From assembly GCF_000384395.1 (NCBI RefSeq), contig NZ_ARWE01000001.1, positions 1,700,894 through 1,764,893 on the forward strand: a stretch of DNA of 64,000 nucleotides, in the 5' to 3' direction. The DNA comes from Geopsychrobacter electrodiphilus DSM 16401. Its GTDB lineage: Bacteria > Desulfobacterota > Desulfuromonadia > Desulfuromonadales > Geopsychrobacteraceae. Below the pieces are notes generated by a model, which worked only from the letters and a program-made list of their open reading frames with translations, made no database searches and was not told the origin of the DNA. The position numbers and the translations under genes are program-made. Below are positions 6,812 to 46,798 of the stretch, piece by piece (the first letter of the stretch is position 1; each line of letters opens with the position of its first letter).

Positions 6812-8218
6812 TCAGGGGAACACCGGGTTGCAATAAATTTCGTCTTCTGAATTTTCGGGTGTTTCGAAGTCGAGACGCGCTCGGCTGAAAACTGTCTGGA
6901 ACCGTGCATAGGCGGTTTCTTGCAGAATTTCATGTGCAGGGGCCGCACAATATTTGATGAGCAGCATCCGTTTTGGATTGTTGATTGGCAGGGCGAGATC
7001 CAAAAGATGGTGTAACAGGGGCGTCCCACGGCGCATAAAACTCCGAGTCGATTTTATATCACTAACCCTCTGAAAAAGCGTTTCTCCTTGTGGATCGAGC
7101 CGAGCCAGCGAGATACGGGTCGGTTCGGGCCGTTGCATTAAAAAATATGATCGCTGGGCGGTCTCTTCGAAAATTTCTTTGACCGCCACACTGACCTCGG
7201 CCTTTTGGCTGCCATACAGGTTACCGAAAATCATCTCATAGAAGCAGTGTTCTTCAATAAATCCACAAATATCCCGAGCTGAAGATTCAATATAAAAGGC
7301 AGCTGGTAACTCTTGTGATTCAAAAGAGCGATCGCAGCAGAGACATTTGGTGAAGAGCCGCTGGCGGCGTTGCCGTTCCCTTTGGTCGTGCAATTCAGAC
7401 CGGGATTCATGTACGGCCAATATTTCATTAATGCGATGTGGGCCTTTTTCCAGATATTCGAGATACGCCTGCCGTGCGAGGTGCCTGAATTGTAAATGAA
7501 CTTCGGTCGCACGACCATGGGTCAAAATCGGATAAACCTTGCCTTCAGGGTTGGTGCCTAACGACTCAACCTTGGGACTTTTGGCGATAAACCCTTCAAA
7601 ACAACGATACCCGCGGTTTATGGCGTAGGCCTTGAGCAGTTGGTATGAGTTTCCAAAAGGCCCTTTGTAACGGATACGTGTGTCGAGCAAGCAGGGGAGG
7701 AGGCGTAAGGGGCTATGTTTTATTCCGTGATCGCTGTAGAACCTTGCGAGATGCTGACAGTTTTCCAGGGACGGCGCGTCCTTGACTGGTACAATCACCC
7801 GATCCGCGGCAAACAGGGCATTCCGGGTATAGGGATCCAGAATTGGGCAGGTGTCGATGATCAGGATGCCACCCAGTTCTGACTGGCTGAGGATGCCAGC
7901 GAGGCTTTCATCAACCGGGGCTTCGGCATTGAAATAATTTAGATTGCTGCACGATGGGATAATCTGTACGCCGTATTCCCCCTGCACGATCAGGTCGGTC
8001 GGAGAGATCCCTTTAAAAAGATGCCCGACGTGATAGTCTGCCTGTTCGTGACTCAGACGAAACATGCGATCAACGGTAAAATGGTTATCAAAGCTGAGCA
8101 AGGTCACTTGCAGGTCTTTCGCCAGTGCTTTGAGATAGATTGCCAGGTTAGTGGCGAGAGTGGTTTTACCAACACCCCCTTTTTCACTCGATACTGTAAT
8201 GACGTAGGGTCGGGCCAT
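6812..8218 (-). CDS. ParA/MinD-like ATPase with long C-terminal Cys-containing extension
   Basis: A 468-residue protein. The N-terminal half (1 to about 255) is a deviant-Walker ATPase: EKGGVGKTT (12-20) and a switch/Walker B-like LIIDTCP (119-125). The C-terminal half (about 265-468) matches no family I can name. It begins with a strongly basic stretch (QRERQRRQR, 279-287), followed by KCLCCDRSF (291-299) and later Cys318 and Cys325, suggesting a metal-binding knot. No ParB or centromere-like repeats lie nearby. It is convergent with the YibQ gene (6 bp apart). A role in positioning of cell components is possible but not shown. Confidence 0.7.
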   Translation of the reverse strand: MARPYVITVSSEKGGVGKTTLATNLAIYLKALAKDLQVTLLSFDNHFTVDRMFRLSHEQADYHVGHLFKGISPTDLIVQGEYGVQIIPSCSNLNYFNAEAPVDESLAGILSQSELGGILIIDTCPILDPYTRNALFAADRVIVPVKDAPSLENCQHLARFYSDHGIKHSPLRLLPCLLDTRIRYKGPFGNSYQLLKAYAINRGYRCFEGFIAKSPKVESLGTNPEGKVYPILTHGRATEVHLQFRHLARQAYLEYLEKGPHRINEILAVHESRSELHDQRERQRRQRLFTKCLCCDRSFESQELPAAFYIESSARDICGFIEEHCFYEMIFGNLYGSQKAEVSVAVKEIFEETAQRSYFLMQRPEPTRISLARLDPQGETLFQRVSDIKSTRSFMRRGTPLLHHLLDLALPINNPKRMLLIKYCAAPAHEILQETAYARFQTVFSRARLDFETPENSEDEIYCNPVFP

Positions 8219-8446
8219 GTGTTTCCTCGTTGATGACCTGAAGAGCCATCTTGGTATACCATTTAAGACAGCAGATGTTTTTAAACGGGTGAAGCGGACG
8301 AGCCCCGAGGATTTCAGCTATTTTTACGGGCTCCAGCCGTCGTTGTTTATAGGGTAACGGTGAGTCCGTGTCAATGAAGCCTGACCCCTGAAGTTAAATC
8401 ATAATGTCAGGTATGAATTATCAAGCCACTATAAAATAAGGGAAAC

Positions 8447-9661
8447 ATGTCATTGCCAGTGATTTCAGTTTCAAGTTTGGTTGATCTGTTGAAAGACTTG
8501 ATCGAAGAGAATTTTGTAGAAGTTTTCGTCGAAGGGGAGATCTCCAATTTTTCTAAGCCAGGTTCCGGGCATTGCTATTTCACTCTTAAGGATGATCGTG
8601 GCCAGTTGCGTTGCGCGATGTTCCGCAGTCACAGTCGGCTGCTGAAATTTATACCCGAAAACGGTATGCAGGTCATTTGTCGTGGAAGGGCCTCGGTCTA
8701 TCCTCAAAGGGGCGAACTTCAGTTGATTGTCGAAAGTGTTGAGCCTTCTGGAATCGGTGGGATGCAGTTGGCTTTTGAACAATTAAAGCAGAAGCTGGCG
8801 GCCGAAGGGTTGTTTGCCCAGGAGCGGAAAAAGGTTCTTCCTGAATTTCCTCAGATCATTGGGGTTGTCACCTCCGCTACCGGAGCTGCGATCCATGATA
8901 TTTTGAATACTTTGCGGCGTCGTTCAAGTGGGGTGAGGGTGTTACTTCGTCCGGTCCGTGTCCAGGGGGCGGGGGCCGCAGCTGAGATCGCTGAGGCGAT
9001 CGCTGATTTAAACCAGGAAGGGAGCGCGGATGTTCTAATCATCGGACGTGGCGGAGGTTCCCTTGAAGATCTCTGGGCTTTCAGTGAGGAGGTGGTTGCT
9101 CGCGCGATTTCGGCTTCGATTCTGCCGGTTGTTTCCGCTGTTGGTCACGAGGTTGATTTCAGTATTGCCGATCTGGTCGCCGATCTGCGCGCACCAACAC
9201 CGACGGCAGCGGCCGAGATGGTGGTAAAAAACCGTGAAGAGGTGGAGAGTCACTGCGATCAGTTGCTGATGCGTCTTGGACGCATCATGCAAGGTCGGCT
9301 CAGCTTGATGCGCCTGCGTTTTGATGGTCTGACACGTCGTCTCGTGTCTCCAGTAGACACCCTTCATCAGCGACGGAGGCAACTGGATGAGTTCGAGCAA
9401 CGTTTCAAACGATCAATTTTGCTGCGCATGCAGCAGTCTGGCCAGATGCTGCAATCCCTGGTCGAGCGGCTCGACGCTCTTTCACCGTTGCGGGTATTGG
9501 CGCGCGGTTATGCTCTGGCACGCCTGCAGCCAATGGGAACCCCACTGTTACATGTCGACCAGGTTCAGGTGGGGGATCAGATTAGTGTCCAGTTGGCTCA
9601 GGGTGAGTTGGAGGCCAGCGTCTTGGGGATAAGCTTCGAAAAAAAACCGAAATTGACTTGA
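8447..9661 (+). CDS. xseA: exodeoxyribonuclease VII large subunit
   Basis: Catalytic subunit of ExoVII, which degrades single-stranded DNA from both ends. It has 404 residues, with an N-terminal OB fold (VEVFVEGEISNFS, GHCYFTLKD), a central nuclease domain (VVTSATGAAIHDI, IIGRGGGSLEDLW, SAVGHEVDFSIAD, RAPTPTAAAE) and a long coiled-coil C-terminus ending in a small domain (GYAL). The length is slightly below the usual 440-460. The start at 8447 follows a good AAGGGA site. xseB is 65 bp downstream, then isoprenoid genes, a common proteobacterial order. Confidence 0.96.
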   Translation: MSLPVISVSSLVDLLKDLIEENFVEVFVEGEISNFSKPGSGHCYFTLKDDRGQLRCAMFRSHSRLLKFIPENGMQVICRGRASVYPQRGELQLIVESVEPSGIGGMQLAFEQLKQKLAAEGLFAQERKKVLPEFPQIIGVVTSATGAAIHDILNTLRRRSSGVRVLLRPVRVQGAGAAAEIAEAIADLNQEGSADVLIIGRGGGSLEDLWAFSEEVVARAISASILPVVSAVGHEVDFSIADLVADLRAPTPTAAAEMVVKNREEVESHCDQLLMRLGRIMQGRLSLMRLRFDGLTRRLVSPVDTLHQRRRQLDEFEQRFKRSILLRMQQSGQMLQSLVERLDALSPLRVLARGYALARLQPMGTPLLHVDQVQVGDQISVQLAQGELEASVLGISFEKKPKLT

Positions 9662-38201: not shown

Positions 38202-38224
38202 CGGATTCAATTCGCTAGTGCAAC
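38202..38224 (+). repeat. IS30 left terminal inverted repeat
   Basis: 23 bp repeat beginning CGGATTCAATTCG. It pairs with 39251-39273 at 19 of 23 positions and overlaps the last codons of the transposase. Confidence 0.85.
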
Positions 38225-39175
38225 CGGTGGATTGATTCCAAAAAATACCTGATTGGGGGTTTTAAATCCAAGGCATTTTCTGGGGCGGTTGTTGAGTTTG
38301 TTCATCACTCTCTGAATCTCTTCGTCAGTCACTTCAGCGAGATCCTTGCCTTTTGGGAAGAACTGGCGAATAAGGCCATTGGTGTTCTCGTTTAAGCCGC
38401 GTTCCCACGAATGATAAGGGTGCGCAAAATAACCGCTAGACTGAAGCATCTCGTCAATGTCCAGATGCAAGGCAAACTCTTTCCCGTTGTCGTAAGTCAA
38501 CGTTTTCACGTGTGAGGCCAGCGGTAGTAATCGTTTCACTATGACAGCCCGAACCTTTTTTGCTGTCCGATCGGGTGCCTTGCCAATCATGCTCCAACGG
38601 GTCTTGCGTTCCACGAGGGTGACCAAAACAGCGCTGCCTTGTTTGCCAATGACCGTATCGGCTTCCCAATCACCGACTCGACTCCGTTCGTTGACCACCT
38701 CTGGTCGTTCGTCGATCGAAACGCGCCCTTTGAGCTGGCCACGACGATCTGGCGCACCGTAACGCTTTTTACGTTGTTTCTGACAGCGCAGATATCGGTA
38801 GATGTCACCACCAGCCCGCTTGTCACGAAGAACATATTGATAAATCCACTCGGGACTAACATGGAGACATTCTTCCTGCCGCAGCCAATAGCTGACCTGC
38901 TCTGGACTCCAGTATTCGCGGGTCAACTGCTCGACGCGCGCCCAGGACTCGCGAGTGATACGGCAAGTGACCTTTTCCTGACGACGACTTACAGCAAGAC
39001 CATCAGCCTGCTTGGGTCTGTAGCCTCTCAACCCACAATTGCGTGCCATCTCCCGGCCAATGGTGGATTTATGGCGGCCAAGAACCTTGGCCATTTGCGC
39101 CTTCGATTGACCGGCTGTTTTCAAGGCGGAAATCTGATATCTTTCTTCTCGGGTAAGCTGTGTGTAGTGCATCAT
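38207..39175 (-). CDS. IS30 family transposase
   Basis: A 322-residue DDE transposase. N-terminal HTH (LTREERYQISALKTAGQS, HKSTIGREMARN). Catalytic core: GDWEADTVIGK (first Asp), TYDNGKEFALH (second Asp) and the Glu in RGLNENTNGLIRQFFPKG. The product moves the element by copy-out/paste-in. Full length with both repeats present. Confidence 0.97.
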   Translation of the reverse strand: MMHYTQLTREERYQISALKTAGQSKAQMAKVLGRHKSTIGREMARNCGLRGYRPKQADGLAVSRRQEKVTCRITRESWARVEQLTREYWSPEQVSYWLRQEECLHVSPEWIYQYVLRDKRAGGDIYRYLRCQKQRKKRYGAPDRRGQLKGRVSIDERPEVVNERSRVGDWEADTVIGKQGSAVLVTLVERKTRWSMIGKAPDRTAKKVRAVIVKRLLPLASHVKTLTYDNGKEFALHLDIDEMLQSSGYFAHPYHSWERGLNENTNGLIRQFFPKGKDLAEVTDEEIQRVMNKLNNRPRKCLGFKTPNQVFFGINPPVALAN

Positions 39176-39250
39176 CGCGCTCCTCTAACTTTGGTCGGTG
39201 AAAGAAGCCGTGAGCCTACCGCAGCTTATCCTTCAAACCAAACTATTAGA

Positions 39251-39273
39251 GTTGCACTTACAACTTGAATCCG
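39251..39273 (-). repeat. IS30 right terminal inverted repeat
   Basis: 23 bp repeat ending in TTGAATCCG, complementary to 38202-38224. It lies 58 bp before the start of the sensor kinase gene. Confidence 0.85.
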
Positions 39274-39331
39274 GGTAATCAATAAGTCGTAAAATTCGCG
39301 CAATATTTTTTTGCCACGGGGGGAATTGCTA

Positions 39332-41644
39332 ATGACTGTGCCGCTGGTCAAGATTAGATCAATTGCGTTGTTCTTTTTTGCTGTTCTACTGCTTACAGCA
39401 ACTTCGACAGTTGGTGAGTCCGCACAGATCAGGGAAATTCTGATTCTTCATTCTTATCATCCTGGTTTCCCATGGACCGATGAAACCATGAAAGGGATGC
39501 AGAAAGTCCTTGCCAATTCTGAAGATCCGATCCACTTACATGTCGAATATCTCGACACAAAACGCCAGCCTGATCCTGAATATTTCACCCATGTTCTTGA
39601 TTCTATCCTGCATTATAAATTGAAAAACAAAAAATTTGACCTTATTCTTGTCTCTGACAATGAGGCATTAAATTTTGTTATTGAACACAAAAGAGATCTT
39701 TTCGCTGCAACTCCAATCGTTTTCTGCGGTATCGAAAAAATTCTTCCAGAACTTTATCAGGATGGAGCAATTATCACGGGAGTTGTTGAGAGTCCTGATT
39801 ACCACGAATTATTGAATACAATTATTTCTCTACAACCAGATACGAGAGAGGTTGTTGTTATTGGAAACCGACGTGATCTTTCCGGGCGTATCAGTTCAGA
39901 TATGTTTAAAGAGGCGGCGTTGAGTTATACGGGAACCCTCACCTTTACCTATTGGGACGATATCCCTGCAGATGAACTTGGCATTAAAATCGAAAATTTA
40001 AAGTCGGGACAGGTTATTTTTATTAATGGGCAGGTTATCGATAGCTCGGGGCAACTCATTAATGCTAATGCCAGAAACAGTATCCTGAGAAACAACAGTC
40101 CCGTCGCCCTTTATGGAGGCTGCGACCTCTGCCTTGGTCATGGAATCATCGGTGGTCCATTGGTTAGTCCTTTTATTCAGGGCCAACTTGCAGCGAAACT
40201 TGCGGTGGAGATTTTATCCGGCAATGTCCCTGAAAAGGGTTTTGTTGTTTTACCCGATAAACCTGTGCCTGCATTCGACTATATCCAGTTGAAACGATTT
40301 AATATTAAGTTTTCGAGTTTGCCAAAAGGCGCCAGACTGATCAATCAGCCCCAACAGTTTTCCATGTTGCCGCCAAAATTGTTCTGGGCAATTATTTTTG
40401 GATTTGTAGTGGCATTGGCCGTCATATCTTTTCTTATCAATAACATACTGCAAAGACGTAAAGCTGAGGCTCGTACCCTTGAAAGCAAACAACAGTACAA
40501 ATACTTGAATCAGCAATTTCAGATCATTCTGGATGGCATTCCTGAGGGCTTAACGCTGATTTCACGCGAGATGATGGTGATCTGGTCAAATAAGGGGGCC
40601 GGAACCGACCAATTCAACAACAGGCCTGGCACCGTTCCGGGCAAATATTGTTGTGAGATGCTCTATAACCGGGCTGAAATTTGTGACAATTGTCCTGCAA
40701 CTCTTGCCTTTGAAAGCGGTCGGGCCAGCGAAGCCGCTATCACAACACCAGATAATCGAATATTGGAAGTTAAGGCTTTCCCTATCCGAAATGAAATTGG
40801 TGAAGTGGCTAATGTTATTGTGTTAGCCAGTGATATTACCGAAAAGAATCGACTCAGAGAAGAAGGTATGCAAAACAGCCGTCTCGCTTCATTAGGAGAG
40901 TTGGCTGCTGGTGTGGCACATGAAATTAATAATCCAAATGCTCTGATTTTACTGAATGCTGAACTGATTCAAAAGACATATGCTGCTGCGGCACCAATTT
41001 TAATGGATCATTTTGTACGGGAAGGGGACTTTCTCCTTGGTTCATTGAACTACTCTGAGATGAGTCAGGAGTTGCCGTTTCTGTTTAAGGAAATGCTCGA
41101 TAGCGCCAGTCATATAAAAAACATTGTTCATGATCTGAAAGATTTTGCCCGCAACGATACGGCAGATCTTACTGAAAACGTTGACTTTAATGAAGCCGTA
41201 CAGGCAGCTGTGCGTTTGGTCAATAATACAATCAAGAATTCAACAGATAATTTTCAAACGAATTATACTTCGGATCTGCCGATAGTCTGTGGCAACTTTC
41301 AACGTGTTGAACAGGTTGTTATTAACTTGATTGTCAATTCCTGTCAGTCTCTGAAAAACAAAAATGCCAGTCTTAAACTCAGCACCTTCTATGATCCCGA
41401 AACGAAACGGAACTGCTTGATTGTTCAGGATGAAGGGTCCGGAATTAACCCTGATGTTTTGCCACATATTACTGATCCATTTTTCACGACCAAGCGTGAG
41501 CAAGGAGGGACCGGGCTCGGACTATCAGTAACGTCCCGTATTGTTCAAGAACATGGAGGCTCGTTGGTTTTCAGTTCGCTACCAGGAGCGGGGACGACAG
41601 CGACAGTTTCAATCCCGGTACAGGGACAGGAGGCAAAATGCTAA
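39332..41644 (+). CDS. hybrid sensor histidine kinase with periplasmic ABC-type substrate-binding domain
   Basis: A 770-residue kinase from ATG 39332 (site GGGGGGA upstream). Layout: signal/first helix about 5-27; periplasmic ABC-substrate-binding domain about 33-330 (ILILHSYHPGFPW, VSDNEAL, GGCDLCLGHGIIGGPL); transmembrane helix about 350-372; PAS-like domain about 385-510 with YCCEM and ICDNCP cysteines; HisKA H-box LAAGVAHEINNPNALI; HATPase with N-box VINLIVNSCQSL, DEGSGI and GGTGLGLSV. It senses a periplasmic ligand and phosphorylates the regulator encoded next (7 bp overlap). Confidence 0.9.
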   Translation: MTVPLVKIRSIALFFFAVLLLTATSTVGESAQIREILILHSYHPGFPWTDETMKGMQKVLANSEDPIHLHVEYLDTKRQPDPEYFTHVLDSILHYKLKNKKFDLILVSDNEALNFVIEHKRDLFAATPIVFCGIEKILPELYQDGAIITGVVESPDYHELLNTIISLQPDTREVVVIGNRRDLSGRISSDMFKEAALSYTGTLTFTYWDDIPADELGIKIENLKSGQVIFINGQVIDSSGQLINANARNSILRNNSPVALYGGCDLCLGHGIIGGPLVSPFIQGQLAAKLAVEILSGNVPEKGFVVLPDKPVPAFDYIQLKRFNIKFSSLPKGARLINQPQQFSMLPPKLFWAIIFGFVVALAVISFLINNILQRRKAEARTLESKQQYKYLNQQFQIILDGIPEGLTLISREMMVIWSNKGAGTDQFNNRPGTVPGKYCCEMLYNRAEICDNCPATLAFESGRASEAAITTPDNRILEVKAFPIRNEIGEVANVIVLASDITEKNRLREEGMQNSRLASLGELAAGVAHEINNPNALILLNAELIQKTYAAAAPILMDHFVREGDFLLGSLNYSEMSQELPFLFKEMLDSASHIKNIVHDLKDFARNDTADLTENVDFNEAVQAAVRLVNNTIKNSTDNFQTNYTSDLPIVCGNFQRVEQVVINLIVNSCQSLKNKNASLKLSTFYDPETKRNCLIVQDEGSGINPDVLPHITDPFFTTKREQGGTGLGLSVTSRIVQEHGGSLVFSSLPGAGTTATVSIPVQGQEAKC

Positions 41645-43059
41645 AAGATTCGCTCTATCCGGCGTTGCCGATACTGCTGGTTGATGATGAAAAGCCCTGG
41701 CTTAGGAGCCTTGGTCTGACACTCAAAGAAATGGCAGGAATCAGTAATTTTATAAAGTGCAGCGACATCCGCGAGGTCATGTCAATTTTGGCGTCCAATG
41801 ATATCAGTATGATCCTGCTCGATCTAACTATGCCCTATATCTCTGGTGAAGACCTGCTGACCATGATCAGCAAGGAATACCCCCACATCCCGGTCATTAT
41901 ACTGAGTGGCATGAATCAGGTTGAGACGGCGGTCAAATGTATGCGAAAGGGGGCCTTTGACTATTTTGTCAAAACGGTTGATAAGGAACGGTTGTTGAAC
42001 GGCATCCAACGGGCATTCGCCATGCGGGAGCTGCAACAAGAAAATCTTCGGCTCAAACGCAGATTTCTCGACCCACTTGAAAATCCGGATATTTTCAGCC
42101 GTTTTCAAACCCGCAGTCATAAAATGCGTGCACTTTTTCAGTATATCGAGGCGATTGCAGGAACCAGTGAGCCACTCTTGATTACTGGAGAAAGTGGCGT
42201 CGGCAAGGAATTATTCGCGCGTGCGATCCATCAGTCCCATTGTCCAGAGGGCACGCTGGTTTCGGTGAATGTCGCCGGCCTGGATGATGAGCACTTTAGC
42301 GATACCCTGTTCGGTCATATGCGGGGGGCATTTACCGGGGCGGAAAAAGATCGCCCGGGGATGGTCGAAAAAGCGGCGGACGGAACACTGTTCCTCGATG
42401 AAATTGGCGATCTCAGCCTTCCTTCACAAATTAAATTGTTAAGACTGTTGCAGGAAAGGGAGTATTTCCCGTTGGGAAGCGATACGCCAAGAATGGCAAA
42501 ATGTTCCTTTATTTTTGCCACAAATCATGATTTGGCCATCAGCCATCAGGAGGGATATTTCCGCAAAGATTTGTATTATCGACTTATGGCACATCATCTT
42601 GAAATCCCGGCATTGCGTGATCGCAAAGAGGATCTGCCGTTGCTTCTGGAAACATTTTTTGAAGAAGCTGCGAAGAATTTCAATAAACCACAGCCTGCAG
42701 TCCCTCGGGAACTTTCAGGCTTACTCGCCAGCTATCATTTCCCGGGGAATGTGCGTGAATTGAGAGCGATTGTGTTTAATGCTATCGGTTTACATAAATC
42801 CCATAAGCTGTCGTTTGAGCATTTTAAAAGTGCCATAGGTCAAGACAGGATCGAAAAGTCTCTCTCGCGAGCAGGTATCCAGGAGGTTTCATTTCCTAAA
42901 ATTCTGCCGACTCTTGAGGAGATCGGAGTGCAGGCAGTCAAAGAGGCGATGCGGCGTGCTGGTGGAAATATTACTGTTGCTGCAAATCTCCTTGGGATCT
43001 CTCGCCAGGGTCTGAGTAAGCGACTAAAAAAGCATCCCTTCGAATTCCAGCCAACATAA
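41638..43059 (+). CDS. sigma-54-dependent response regulator (NtrC family)
   Basis: A 473-residue regulator. Receiver domain 10-125 with Asp62 in LLDLTMP and Lys in FVK. AAA+ domain: Walker A GESGVGKELFARA, GAFTGAEKD (sigma-54 contact loop) and LFLDEIGDLS. C-terminal Fis-type HTH (GGNITVAANLLGISRQGLSK). Complete and co-transcribed with the kinase. Three palindromes and a sigma-54 promoter lie directly after its stop codon, so the next gene is its likely target. Confidence 0.93.
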   Translation: MLKDSLYPALPILLVDDEKPWLRSLGLTLKEMAGISNFIKCSDIREVMSILASNDISMILLDLTMPYISGEDLLTMISKEYPHIPVIILSGMNQVETAVKCMRKGAFDYFVKTVDKERLLNGIQRAFAMRELQQENLRLKRRFLDPLENPDIFSRFQTRSHKMRALFQYIEAIAGTSEPLLITGESGVGKELFARAIHQSHCPEGTLVSVNVAGLDDEHFSDTLFGHMRGAFTGAEKDRPGMVEKAADGTLFLDEIGDLSLPSQIKLLRLLQEREYFPLGSDTPRMAKCSFIFATNHDLAISHQEGYFRKDLYYRLMAHHLEIPALRDRKEDLPLLLETFFEEAAKNFNKPQPAVPRELSGLLASYHFPGNVRELRAIVFNAIGLHKSHKLSFEHFKSAIGQDRIEKSLSRAGIQEVSFPKILPTLEEIGVQAVKEAMRRAGGNITVAANLLGISRQGLSKRLKKHPFEFQPT

Positions 43060-43063
43060 ACCG

Positions 43064-43079
43064 CGCAACTTTGGTTGCG
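43064..43079. promoter_or_regulatory. candidate regulator-binding palindrome 1 (enhancer site)
   Basis: CGCAACTTTGGTTGCG, a near-perfect palindrome 5 bp after the regulator stop. It shares the core GCAAC-nnn-GGTTGC with sites 2 and 3 and lies about 190 bp upstream of the -24 element, a usual distance for NtrC-type enhancers. Confidence 0.6.
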
Positions 43080-43083
43080 TTTG

Positions 43084-43097
43084 ACAACCAGAGTTGC
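43084..43097. promoter_or_regulatory. candidate regulator-binding palindrome 2 (enhancer site)
   Basis: ACAACCAGAGTTGC, which on the other strand reads GCAACTCTGGTTGT. It matches site 1 at 12 of 14 positions and lies 5 bp after it. Confidence 0.58.
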
Positions 43098-43148
43098 ATC
43101 CCCGCCATACTGCACTTTCTGCAATCTATTCATTAGAATCACCATTAT

Positions 43149-43170
43149 GCCCGTAACCCTGGTTGCGGGC
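43149..43170. promoter_or_regulatory. candidate regulator-binding palindrome 3 (enhancer site)
   Basis: An extended palindrome with arms GCCCGTAACC and GGTTGCGGGC around CT. The core GTAACCCTGGTTGC matches the consensus of sites 1 and 2. No T-run follows, so it is not a terminator. A weaker related half (AACCAGGGTGTTG) is at 43215-43227. Confidence 0.55.
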
Positions 43171-43253
43171 ATAATTAACGTTTGTGATGGTTAATATTGA
43201 CAAAAATAACGTAAAACCAGGGTGTTGTGTGAGTTATGAGGATTTGATTGTCC

Positions 43254-43270
43254 TTGGCACCTCCATTGCT
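43254..43270 (+). promoter_or_regulatory. sigma-54 (-24/-12) promoter
   Basis: TTGGCAC (43254-43260), a 5 bp spacer and TTGCT (43266-43270): an exact match to the conserved TGGCAC-N5-TTGC core. The transcription start would be near 43281, leaving a 5' leader of about 125 bases. It lies between a sigma-54 response regulator and the secreted-protein gene. Confidence 0.8.
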
Positions 43271-43406
43271 ATTACCCATGACCTGTAACTGCCACGATGG
43301 ATATCACATGTAACATGCTTGATGTGGCATTTGATGGGCTGATGGTCAGCCCAACTGCGAAGGTGCGGTTCTCAATTTGGAAAGAGACAAATCAGGAGGC
43401 AAGCAA

Positions 43407-44849
43407 ATGGAAAATCGTAAAAGGTTCACCAAACTAATCTGGGCCCTGGCGGTCCTCATGGTGACAGCTGGAATCTCCCAGGCCGCTGTGATTACGGAAT
43501 GGGATCAGTCCAACGTCACCCCAATGGCTCCCACCAACGTGGCCAACCCAGGATTGGTCTTCGACCAGTACAACTACATCGAGCCTGGTTCGCTGCTTGA
43601 TCCCAACACCGGCGCCGTCGCCACCGGCGGATTCATGCCGAGTGGCTACTCTAAATACGCCGGCGGCATCAACTACCTGCCGAACGGTGCCATGACCTGG
43701 AAAGAGCGCGACACTCAAGGCCCTGGCCTGAGCATCGTGACTGACGATGATACTACTCACATCAACTGCATCATGTCCGCTGGCTGGAACCCTGATTCCA
43801 CTCCAACCGCGACCCAGATGAGCGACTGGTGGGGCGTTGATAAAAAGCAGTGTTCTGATCCTTTTCAATCGAGCAAGCGTTTCAAAGTTGTCAGCTACAT
43901 GATCGACGCACCTATCGATCTGGACTTCACTGTCAGCGCCAACGGCGCAGATGATATCTACCGGCTCCTGCAGAAGTATGGCAACCAGACTGGTCATCGC
44001 GTCAGCGGCTATACTCAGCAACTCGGTTTTACCGTCAACGGTGTCTTCACCGAAGCGCAGCCTGGCCAAGGTTTGGCCTTTACCCTGAAGAACGGTACCA
44101 AGCACAGCAACGATGCCCCGACTCCGAGCACCATGGCCAACCAGGGTGAACTCGACTCGCTGCTGGCTCACGGCCTGTTCGGCGCTCCAGACAAGCACCA
44201 CACCGCCTCTGGATACTTCAACCCCAACGTCCGCGCTAGTTTCGGCGTGGAAGCTGGGGAAACCTTCATTCGCACCACCGGTATGGCCCCTGTTCACACT
44301 GACCTGTTCGGCGAGTGGATGCCTTCCCAACAGCCGAAGGGCGCTTACTACTTCGATATGGATGGCATCGTTTATACCGACAACGCTCTGGTTGCATCCT
44401 GCGAAGGCGCATTTGACGCAGCCGCAGGTCAGGCCGACCCCGTAAACACGAATGCCGGTTGCGATGGTACCTGGGTGACTTATCGTTCGTCCTACGTTCC
44501 GGTTCAAAACGCTGACGGCACCTATACTATTCCAACTTCGTACGGCATTGATCCAACAAACCGCGATCTTAACCGGACTGAGATTGACAGCGCAACACTC
44601 GCCGCCTGGGCTGCTGATTCACTCTGGATTCCTGGCAACATCGACGATTTTGCTAACGTCAATATCAACGCATATATCGCTGTTGGTAACGCTGCCAACT
44701 GGCCGACCGCTGATACTGATGGCAACGCCAGCTTCACCATCCGGATGACCCCGACCTTTGACCTTGCCACGGCAACAACTGAGCCGGGTACTGATGGACC
44801 TGCTGACTTCATTGTCTCTATCGATGCGCCGACCACGGTCGTAAAGTAA
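43407..44849 (+). CDS. large secreted protein, choice-of-anchor F-like
   Basis: A 480-residue protein from ATG 43407, after a strong AGGAGG site. Signal peptide LAVLMVTAGISQA. The mature part begins VITEWDQSNV and contains TWKERDTQGPG, FDMDGIVYTDNAL and repeated beta-strand segments. This resembles the 'choice-of-anchor F' surface-protein family, whose members end in various sorting signals; none is visible here. Four or more Cys (NCIMS, QCSDP, SCEGAF, GCDGTW) could form disulfides. Codons are rich in third-position C, unlike the neighbours, suggesting high expression or a different history. Confidence 0.68.
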   Translation: MENRKRFTKLIWALAVLMVTAGISQAAVITEWDQSNVTPMAPTNVANPGLVFDQYNYIEPGSLLDPNTGAVATGGFMPSGYSKYAGGINYLPNGAMTWKERDTQGPGLSIVTDDDTTHINCIMSAGWNPDSTPTATQMSDWWGVDKKQCSDPFQSSKRFKVVSYMIDAPIDLDFTVSANGADDIYRLLQKYGNQTGHRVSGYTQQLGFTVNGVFTEAQPGQGLAFTLKNGTKHSNDAPTPSTMANQGELDSLLAHGLFGAPDKHHTASGYFNPNVRASFGVEAGETFIRTTGMAPVHTDLFGEWMPSQQPKGAYYFDMDGIVYTDNALVASCEGAFDAAAGQADPVNTNAGCDGTWVTYRSSYVPVQNADGTYTIPTSYGIDPTNRDLNRTEIDSATLAAWAADSLWIPGNIDDFANVNINAYIAVGNAANWPTADTDGNASFTIRMTPTFDLATATTEPGTDGPADFIVSIDAPTTVVK

Positions 44850-44897
44850 GCGATCAAGTTAACGAACATAAACTGGATAAGATATCTGGAGGATAAA

Positions 44898-45320
44898 ATG
44901 AGAACAACGAAACTTATTTTAATGGCAATGCTCTTTGCCTTTGTCAGCGTCACAATGGCTCACGCGGGCGCTCAGGTCCAAATCAACCAGGCTGCAACAG
45001 TCAAAGCTTCGGTTCAGAACAACAGTCACGACAGCGTTCGTGCTGCTGTCAAAATGACCGGCTACGATGATGCCAATGTCAAAGTTGGCCAGCTTTGCAA
45101 GGAAGCTTGGCTAGGTGAAGGGCGCACCACCGCAATTGAGTACGCCTGGAACGCTCCGGCCTACGCCACCGGCGTCTACTGGCAGGCCAAAGTTGAAGTG
45201 AACGGTGACTGCCCGAACGCAGAAATCACGATGGTTGATTATCATGACTACCACGACAGCGACAGCGACGACAGTGACGATGGTGGTGGTGATAGTGATG
45301 GTGGTCATGGTCATTACTAA
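44898..45320 (+). CDS. small secreted protein with Asp/His-rich C-terminal tail
   Basis: A 140-residue protein with a signal peptide ending AHA and a GGAGG site upstream. Residues about 24-112 look beta-rich with two Cys (QLCKEAW, GDCPNAE). The last 27 residues are almost only Asp, His, Ser, Gly and Tyr (YHDYHDSDSDD ... GGHGHY), a likely metal-binding tail. It lies 48 bp after the large secreted protein and shares its sigma-54 transcript by context. No family is recognised. Confidence 0.7.
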   Translation: MRTTKLILMAMLFAFVSVTMAHAGAQVQINQAATVKASVQNNSHDSVRAAVKMTGYDDANVKVGQLCKEAWLGEGRTTAIEYAWNAPAYATGVYWQAKVEVNGDCPNAEITMVDYHDYHDSDSDDSDDGGGDSDGGHGHY

Positions 45321-45344
45321 TATCTAAGCTGTAACGAAAAAAAA

Positions 45345-45373
45345 ACGGCTGCCGGGTGATTTCGGCAGCCGTT
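45345..45373. terminator. hairpin terminator after the secreted-protein pair
   Basis: An 11 bp perfect stem AACGGCTGCCG / CGGCAGCCGTT with a 7 bp loop. A run of A precedes it (45338-45346), so it would be strongest on the minus strand, but it also closes the 43407-45320 unit. Confidence 0.75.
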
Positions 45374-45445: not shown

Positions 45446-46798
45446 ATGAAACAGGAGAACACGCATAAGCTTGTAGCCTGGGGATTCTTTTTCGCCATTG
45501 GCGGTGGCTATTTTCTCATGGCGGCACAGTTTCCTTTGGCTTATATCGTTGCAACCTATGAAGATATGGTTGGGGAGTGGGCCCAGGTTTTTCTCTTTGC
45601 AGCAACCATGCTTCTTTCCATCCGTGTAGCCTGCTACAAATCGAGTTACCGACTCTTCTTCGCGATTCTGGCTCTGGCCTGTTTCTATGTCGTCGGCGAG
45701 GAGATCTCCTGGGGGCAAAGAATCTTCAACCTGACGACTCCTGAGTTTTTTAAAACACACAATCTGCAAAACGAAACCAACCTGCATAATTTTTTCACCG
45801 GGCCCATTACAACGACATTGAAACAGACACTCGAATACCTGATCGCTTTGGGTCTGGTTGTTTATGGCCTGCTCTACCCTTTGCTTGTGGCAGCCCGCTG
45901 GAAAATCGCCCTCTGGTTCGACAAAAAAGGGTTAGCGCACCCACCGCTTTATCTTTGGCCGTTTTTTGTTTTAAGTGCCTATCTTGAGCTCGGGTTCATC
46001 AGCTTCAATGAAGCCGAGATCGCCGAGATTCTGATCCCTTTGGCGCTGGCAATCATGGCAGCCAATTACCTGCTGGCTTTACGTAATCCGCAGGCTCTGA
46101 AAGATATCAACCGCTGGAAAATGATTGAATCGAAACGACTCGCCTACCAAACCACAACACTGGCCCTTACGGTCACCTTACTCGCCTTTGCAACTTCTGC
46201 TGCCAGCTATTCGTCAGACTTGGGGGGAAAAATCGATTCCCGCTATTTAAAGGGATTGGAAAAGTTTGCCGACCGTTACAAGCGTTTTGAACAATGGGAG
46301 AGTGCAGCGCAACTCTATCTGCTGGCATCCGCCAATGAACCTCAAAAGGCTGCAATCCTGCGGAATCTGTTCATCTGCTACTCCAATCTGAAAGATGAAC
46401 AGGCGGCCTTATTTTTTCTCACTAAAGCAGAGCAAGCGGATATTGATTTTCTGGCCAGTGAGCCATTGAGTGTTGGGTCCCACCTGTCCCTGGTGGAAAC
46501 CTATGAACTGATGAAAGATAAGGACCGCGCCGCTGATCATTTGCGAGGAAGTCTGGACATTGCCAGACTTAATGCCCAAAGGTTTCCCGATAGTGCCTCG
46601 GCGGCCTATTGGCTCGGCAGGGCAGAAGAAAAAACTGGTAACTTAAGCAAAGCATCGAAGGAATATCAACGTGCTGCGCAGATACGTCCTGGCGTTCTCA
46701 GGTATCAAAAAGCGATTCTGTATTTGAATCGGCAACTGGAGATCTCTGGCCATGCCGGTTCAGCGGCGGTGATGGCGTTAACGCTCAATGTCAAATAG
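45446..46798 (+). CDS. polytopic membrane protein with C-terminal TPR region
   Basis: A 450-residue protein. Hydrophobic helices span residues about 10-30, 45-62, 68-88, 128-150, 170-192, 195-212 and 232-254. Between helices 3 and 4 is the conserved-looking segment GEEISWGQRIF with NLQNETNLHNFF. After residue 265 come TPR-like helical pairs (WESAAQLYLLASANEP, AAYWLGRAEEKTGNLSKASKEYQRAAQIRPG). No named family is assigned. It starts 125 bp after the small secreted protein, beyond a hairpin, and may belong to the same surface system. Confidence 0.75.
   Translation: MKQENTHKLVAWGFFFAIGGGYFLMAAQFPLAYIVATYEDMVGEWAQVFLFAATMLLSIRVACYKSSYRLFFAILALACFYVVGEEISWGQRIFNLTTPEFFKTHNLQNETNLHNFFTGPITTTLKQTLEYLIALGLVVYGLLYPLLVAARWKIALWFDKKGLAHPPLYLWPFFVLSAYLELGFISFNEAEIAEILIPLALAIMAANYLLALRNPQALKDINRWKMIESKRLAYQTTTLALTVTLLAFATSAASYSSDLGGKIDSRYLKGLEKFADRYKRFEQWESAAQLYLLASANEPQKAAILRNLFICYSNLKDEQAALFFLTKAEQADIDFLASEPLSVGSHLSLVETYELMKDKDRAADHLRGSLDIARLNAQRFPDSASAAYWLGRAEEKTGNLSKASKEYQRAAQIRPGVLRYQKAILYLNRQLEISGHAGSAAVMALTLNVK

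Follow-up and report, generated by a model that had tools for sequence, protein, structure and literature searches.

Does the pair of histidine kinase and NtrC-type regulator genes at this locus of Geopsychrobacter electrodiphilus control the secreted-protein gene that follows it, and through which DNA sites? We addressed this in the window, the whole 64,000-nucleotide stretch that was analysed, with positions 43060-43406, between regulator and secreted-protein gene, at the centre of the analysis. The features concerned are listed here.

38205..39271, minus strand: IS30-family insertion sequence (transposase NF033563, 297 bits)
39332..41644, plus strand: sensor histidine kinase (Pfam: HisKA, HATPase, PAS)
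41638..43059, plus strand: NtrC-type response regulator (Pfam: receiver, AAA+ with GAFTGA, Fis-type HTH)
43003..43008, plus strand: codons of Arg456-Gln457, the X1X2 residues of recognition helix ISRQGLSKRLKK that covary with the half-site
43065-43078, unstranded: putative regulator site 1, GCAACTTTGGTTGC, exact GCAAC-N4-GTTGC
43084-43097, unstranded: putative regulator site 2, ACAACCAGAGTTGC, one mismatch, 19 bp from site 1
43153-43166, unstranded: putative regulator site 3, GTAACCCTGGTTGC, one mismatch, within a longer inverted repeat ATTATGCCCG...CGGGCATAAT
43255-43269, plus strand: predicted sigma-54 promoter, TGGCACCTCCATTGC, exact TGGCAC-N5-TTGC, predicted transcript start near 43281
43282..43406, plus strand: leader, about 125 nt long, containing a GGGCTGATGGTCAGCCC stem-loop at 43335-43360
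43407..44849, plus strand: choice-of-anchor F family (NF033657) secreted protein, 480 aa, signal peptide
44898..45320, plus strand: small secreted protein, 140 aa, Asp/Ser/His-rich tail
45344..45373, unstranded: GC-rich hairpin separating the small gene from the TPR gene, with a T run confined to the minus strand
45446..46798, plus strand: membrane protein with a C-terminal TPR domain and invariant GEEISWGQR/ETNLHNF/FNEAE motifs ahead of the TPRs

A sequence-only reading of this DNA had placed three palindromes between the NtrC-type regulator and the secreted-protein gene, and their positions (43065, 43084 and 43153) were borne out to within a base. The three dyads also stood, but the core given for them, GCAAC-nnn-GGTTGC, is better written GCAAC-N4-GTTGC, since site 2 has GGTTG on the minus strand only. 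The promoter sequence was likewise as described; it starts at 43255, one base after the 43254 originally given. A 'weaker half' at 43215, read earlier as a further site, lies more than two mismatches from the palindrome and has no counterpart in the arrays of relatives, so we dropped this fourth site. None of 5000 first-order Markov shuffles of the 347-bp region reached three sites at one mismatch or fewer (shuffle mean 0.024). The promoter is the sole exact TGGCAC-N5-TTGC match in the 64-kb window, and the 4.24 Mb genome contains 20 such matches, compared with 9 for its reversed control. The genome has 10 exact GCAAC-N4-GTTGC palindromes; of three others that we inspected, two lie inside genes and the third lies 20 bp from a sigma-54-like match, without an array. 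A composite search of the window's genome for a second palindrome-plus-promoter array stayed at chance level (23 hits versus 22 in the reversed control), and a looser composite pattern was too permissive to use.

The gene pair has the make-up of a two-component sigma-54 activation system. The regulator combines a receiver, an AAA+ domain with GAFTGA and a Fis-type HTH, adjoins a histidine kinase, and is 63-75% identical to regulators from the same type of locus in genomes G057, G074 and G135. The kinase, for which the ATG at 39332 (behind GGGGGG) is favoured over the TTG at 39311 as start, runs from a signal peptide/TM segment through a periplasmic ABC_sub_bind-like (PF04392) domain, a second TM segment and PAS to HisKA and HATPase. 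The periplasmic ligand-binding domain proposed earlier is real, but its family is only weakly assignable (PF04392 at E 5e-4, below the cut-off of that model), and the sensor domain had no match among PDB sequences. The genome holds one rpoN and about 35 proteins that match the sigma-54 activator model over their AAA+ part, so that cross-regulation is possible.

We then surveyed 136 genomes of the order, to which named MAGs added further homologues. A homologue of the target was present in 15 of the 136. The sequence-only reading had proposed scanning related genomes for the GCAAC palindrome next to regulator homologues, and had counted a lack of conservation against itself; the array proved conserved upstream of homologous choice-of-anchor F genes. 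Array and promoter together preceded 12 further such genes (L052, L055, L056, L061, L062, L063, L064, L067, L071, L073, L109 and L017, with L063 and L064 belonging to G074, L061 and L109 to G125, L067 to G100 and L017 to G127). Their layout is a palindrome pair or single palindrome, a further palindrome and then the sigma-54 promoter. The tandem pair lies 17-19 bp apart and the first site 86-89 bp (or 99) from the third, which in most relatives falls about 70 bp past the pair, with the promoter about 90 bp beyond; L071 and L073 have a longer middle gap. From third site to promoter the distance is 87-95 bp in relatives and 102 bp in the window, where this spacing, site 2 and site 3 depart slightly from the modal pattern. 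Conservation among relatives of dyad sites placed before a -24/-12 promoter is what an NtrC-type system presents.

Kinase and regulator genes are adjacent to or near the target in L052, L055, L056, L062, L071 and L073. The array is also kept where these genes are divergent, distant or replaced, which indicates that it tracks the target gene. Choice-of-anchor F genes without such a regulator alongside (L053, L057, L058, L060, L074 and L075) have no palindromes, and most have a sigma-54-like motif. In L054, tandem c-di-GMP-I-GGC riboswitches (8196-8274 and 8315-8393) replace the array before a choice-of-anchor F gene starting near 8520. Because these genes lack palindromes and L054 has riboswitches instead, the regulatory input of these genes appears to have been swapped more than once.

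The most specific evidence comes from the regulators themselves, whose family is expanded in this order (99 of 136 genomes at E <= 1e-120). Within 350 bp around the stop codons of 112 non-redundant family regulators, we found 116 exact AAC-N4-GTT cores, against 9.6 in shuffles (maximum 18) and 13 in reversed sequence. The recognition helix follows the pattern G-[IV]-[ST]-X1-X2-[AG]-L-S-K-R, and the two outermost half-site bases vary with X1X2: GC with RQ regulators (66/78 half-sites), AT with QP (94/110), TC or AC with PQ (11/16) and GT with RP (13/24), a less clean class with an exact core in 7/18. Counted per locus, G accompanied X1 = R in 24/26 versus 1/39 otherwise, C accompanied X2 = Q in 21/21 versus 5/44, and T accompanied X2 = P in 37/42 versus 0/23. 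Across the family, sites 1 and 2 are 18 bp apart in 33 of 41 arrays, and site 3 lies mostly 91-95 bp from the promoter. The window pair is consistent with these classes, combining an RQ helix with GCAAC (GC) sites. The helix aligns residue by residue with that of E. coli Fis, so that X1 (Arg456) corresponds to Arg85, the Fis residue in contact with the conserved G at +/-7 (PMC4784862). Counted from the centre of the 14-bp dyad, position seven is taken by the outer G of GCAAC. Fis differs from this family in lacking a counterpart of X2 as a second specificity residue, and in recognising chiefly the shape of the DNA.

On a tree of 75 regulators built without the helix, the helix classes were clustered. 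The best tree gave five changes of X1 and four of X2, with equally many independent pairs, and strongly supported branches gave one pair each; a single origin of QP is not rejected (p 0.56), whereas the test speaks weakly against a single origin of RQ (p 0.028). As an association across these loci, the match between helix and site is therefore firm, and it is structurally sensible for X1, while its repeated independent evolution is less supported. QP siblings, among them the one in the window's genome at G000:C1:2706288, precede TAXI-TRAP transporters, and other siblings precede chemotaxis, molybdopterin or thioredoxin-reductase operons (all targets named by eye from sequence). At the locus of the sibling in the window's genome (L107, G000:C1:2698000-2714000), three ATAAC-type palindromes come after the kinase/regulator pair, then a sigma-54 promoter and the TAXI-TRAP transporter. 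We consider it probable, at a level well short of confidence, that a two-residue/two-base code (X1: R = G, Q/P = A/T; X2: Q = C, P = T) operates in a stereotyped three-site array, and that duplicated pairs gain targets by joint change of helix and site.

Could the palindromes instead be RNA hairpins that terminate or insulate the kinase/regulator operon and bind no protein? As RNA, sites 1 and 2 jointly and site 3 by itself do give good folds (z -4.7 in both cases), site 3 carries additional long arms, and a T-rich stretch follows such a hairpin in L052 and L116. However, no T run follows the hairpins on the plus strand of the window, which leaves them short of the GC-rich stem plus U run of a Rho-independent terminator. 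The array also persists at loci that have no regulator gene ending ahead of it, namely L062, where the gene is divergent, and L061, L063, L064 and L052. In L052, whose target is 81% identical to that of the window, the intact array is directly preceded by the decayed 3' end of a regulator gene (approximately 6990-7160; E 8e-13), some 60 codons long, interrupted by an in-frame stop and changed in its recognition helix; the kinase/regulator pair found there in divergent orientation is a different one, of the same class. This array has outlived its first regulator, which ties its conservation to the target and not to ending a regulator transcript. Moreover, the palindrome letters track the recognition helix, which a terminator would not need. 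On these grounds we reject the terminator reading, and regard hairpins without protein sites as a very improbable account.

It is also very improbable, on our assessment, that the sites serve another activator of the genome and that the adjoining pair is a mere neighbour. The many activator-like proteins noted above would allow this, as would L061 and L067, targets with no such pair beside them. Yet the genomes of these two loci carry RQ members of the window regulator's clade elsewhere (L080 and L086), and the window regulator's own RQ helix is of the class that predicts GC. All nine regulators of the clade stem from loci or genomes in which a choice-of-anchor F gene bears the array; G127, a genome 79% complete, has such a target (L017) and yielded no clade member. 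In G074 and G100, GCAAC sites and a sigma-54 promoter also come after the regulator gene itself. Beyond these arrays lie two long secreted proteins (L055 10356-12017, minus strand, and L114 3652-5355, plus strand) that look alike by eye and belong to no curated family; these genomes have them besides their choice-of-anchor F genes. The module is plural in G074, G100 and G125; it seems to be local in the window's genome and to form a small secreted-protein regulon in some relatives.

Together, the conserved array, the covariation of helix and site and the fit of the window's RQ helix to GC indicate that the regulator very probably binds the three palindromes and activates 43407-45320. The link between regulator, sites and promoter made in the sequence-only reading is supported by the conservation of array and promoter, by the covariation, and by arrays that survive although the regulator gene is elsewhere or replaced. 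Under the mechanism that we propose, a periplasmic signal would be sensed by the binding-protein-like domain of the kinase, which would phosphorylate the adjacent NtrC-type regulator. Its Arg456-Gln457 helix would bind the tandem GCAAC-N4-GTTGC pair and the third palindrome about 70 bp downstream, and its AAA+ domain would contact sigma-54 polymerase at TGGCAC-N5-TTGC, about 100 bp beyond site 3, by looping. Transcription from about 43281 would then supply the choice-of-anchor F protein together with its partner, the small protein with the Asp/His tail, and the transcript may read past the hairpin at 45344-45373 into the TPR membrane protein gene. We hold this scheme, from kinase/regulator pair through three sites and sigma-54 promoter to secreted protein, to be highly probable as a whole: comparative evidence supports the sites, their conservation and the regulator-site covariation, while phosphotransfer, looping and activation we infer from knowledge of the family.

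The IS30 element bears on how the module behaves in this strain. On its right it ends some 60 bp short of the kinase ATG, the genome has five near-identical copies, and its terminal inverted repeats, read by eye, are imperfect. The insertion is recent, and this copy may have altered kinase expression, so that the strain may differ from the ancestral state. The module could be intact yet quiet or rewired here, with kinase and regulator cut off from their promoter or supplied with a new one; we judge this unlikely, though clearly less so than either alternative above. The kinase and regulator frames are intact, promoters are often supplied by insertion sequences, and disruption of a putative native promoter is a possibility only. 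Such quieting or rewiring is compatible with the proposed mechanism as the ancestral design.

The target is a clear choice-of-anchor F protein (NF033657, 292 bits versus a cut-off of 50) and the only one in the 4.24 Mb genome. The C-terminal sorting signal implied by the family name is not visible: the C terminus, TEPGTDGPADFIVSIDAPTTVVK, has no recognisable anchor and matches no PEP-CTERM model. The protein's predicted fold is of middling quality (pLDDT 73) and had no PDB match at E <= 0.001. Our guess is that it is a surface or matrix protein, since one relative's gene sits behind tandem c-di-GMP riboswitches; this c-di-GMP control, the secretion signals and the acidic disulfide repeats on one paralogue would all fit such a role, as would the broad tie of sigma-54 to the cell exterior (PMC3162934). 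The leader stem-loop, GGGCTGATGGTCAGCCC, resembles the leaders of L052 and L053, and the leader matched no Rfam family at a meaningful E-value.

The earlier proposal that the promoter serves 43407-45320 and perhaps the TPR gene held unevenly. It is supported for 43407, and likely for 44898-45320, which follows after 48 bp in an adjacency conserved among relatives. The tail of the small protein (45235-45317), kept among relatives in its Asp/Ser/His-rich composition and not in sequence, possibly binds metal. The TPR gene is less certain, with the hairpin at 45344-45373 ahead of it; it follows the small gene in seven relatives and is absent beside others, and its membership of the module is probable but unproven. 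Similarity searches with the TPR protein returned generic TPR matches only. The family with its invariant GEEISWGQR, ETNLHNF and FNEAE motifs may represent an enzyme or an export factor.

The nearest analogue in logic, not in membership, is PrsK/PrsR. That system, described together with the PEP-CTERM promoter element (Haft et al. 2006, PMC1569441), also has a tandem histidine kinase and NtrC-type regulator, an associated TPR protein and, in long intergenic regions, a repeated upstream element and sigma-54 promoter before exported-protein genes. The PEP-CTERM element, however, is a 17-nt motif ending in TTTACA about 63 nt before the promoter, compared with GCAAC-N4-GTTGC at about 90 bp here, and PrsK/PrsR targets carry a PEP-CTERM sorting signal that the window target lacks. 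Membership is further contradicted by the window regulator's score against the PrsR model TIGR02915 (271.8 bits, cut-off 502.6) and by the genome's own PrsR, another gene, which scores 620 bits and lies near an exosortase gene. The regulator resembles NtrC/AtoC-type activators (group I bacterial enhancer-binding proteins) in its receiver-AAA+ (GAFTGA)-Fis HTH order and in paired palindromes lying some 100 bp or farther upstream of a -24/-12 promoter, but its scores with the best curated models (AtoC 294 bits, NtrC 276 bits) fall far below their cut-offs, and it differs in its third conserved site and family-specific helix-to-site classes. The earlier statement that no system with this gene set had been described agrees with our literature search, which found no description of choice-of-anchor F regulation or of the helix-site code; since the search reached few subscription papers, this is weak evidence. 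Sigma-54/two-component control of secreted PEP-CTERM proteins has been described (PMC1569441, PMC9850573); in Aquincola, a PEP-CTERM gene depends on RpoN (PMC9850573). Two-component sigma-54 activation is itself a known kind, but the target, the array and the helix-to-site code were not found described.

For choice-of-anchor F proteins, so far a sequence family, the module predicts a specific regulator and an inducible promoter, which give a handle on their function. The DNA specificity of this sigma-54 activator family appears readable from two residues; if so, many orphan regulators in the order could be assigned to targets from sequence, and the targets gained by duplicated pairs would include transporters, chemotaxis operons, oxidoreductases and secreted proteins. 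The sister systems amount to a natural swap experiment, and the insulation of duplicated enhancer-binding proteins, a long-standing question, becomes directly testable.
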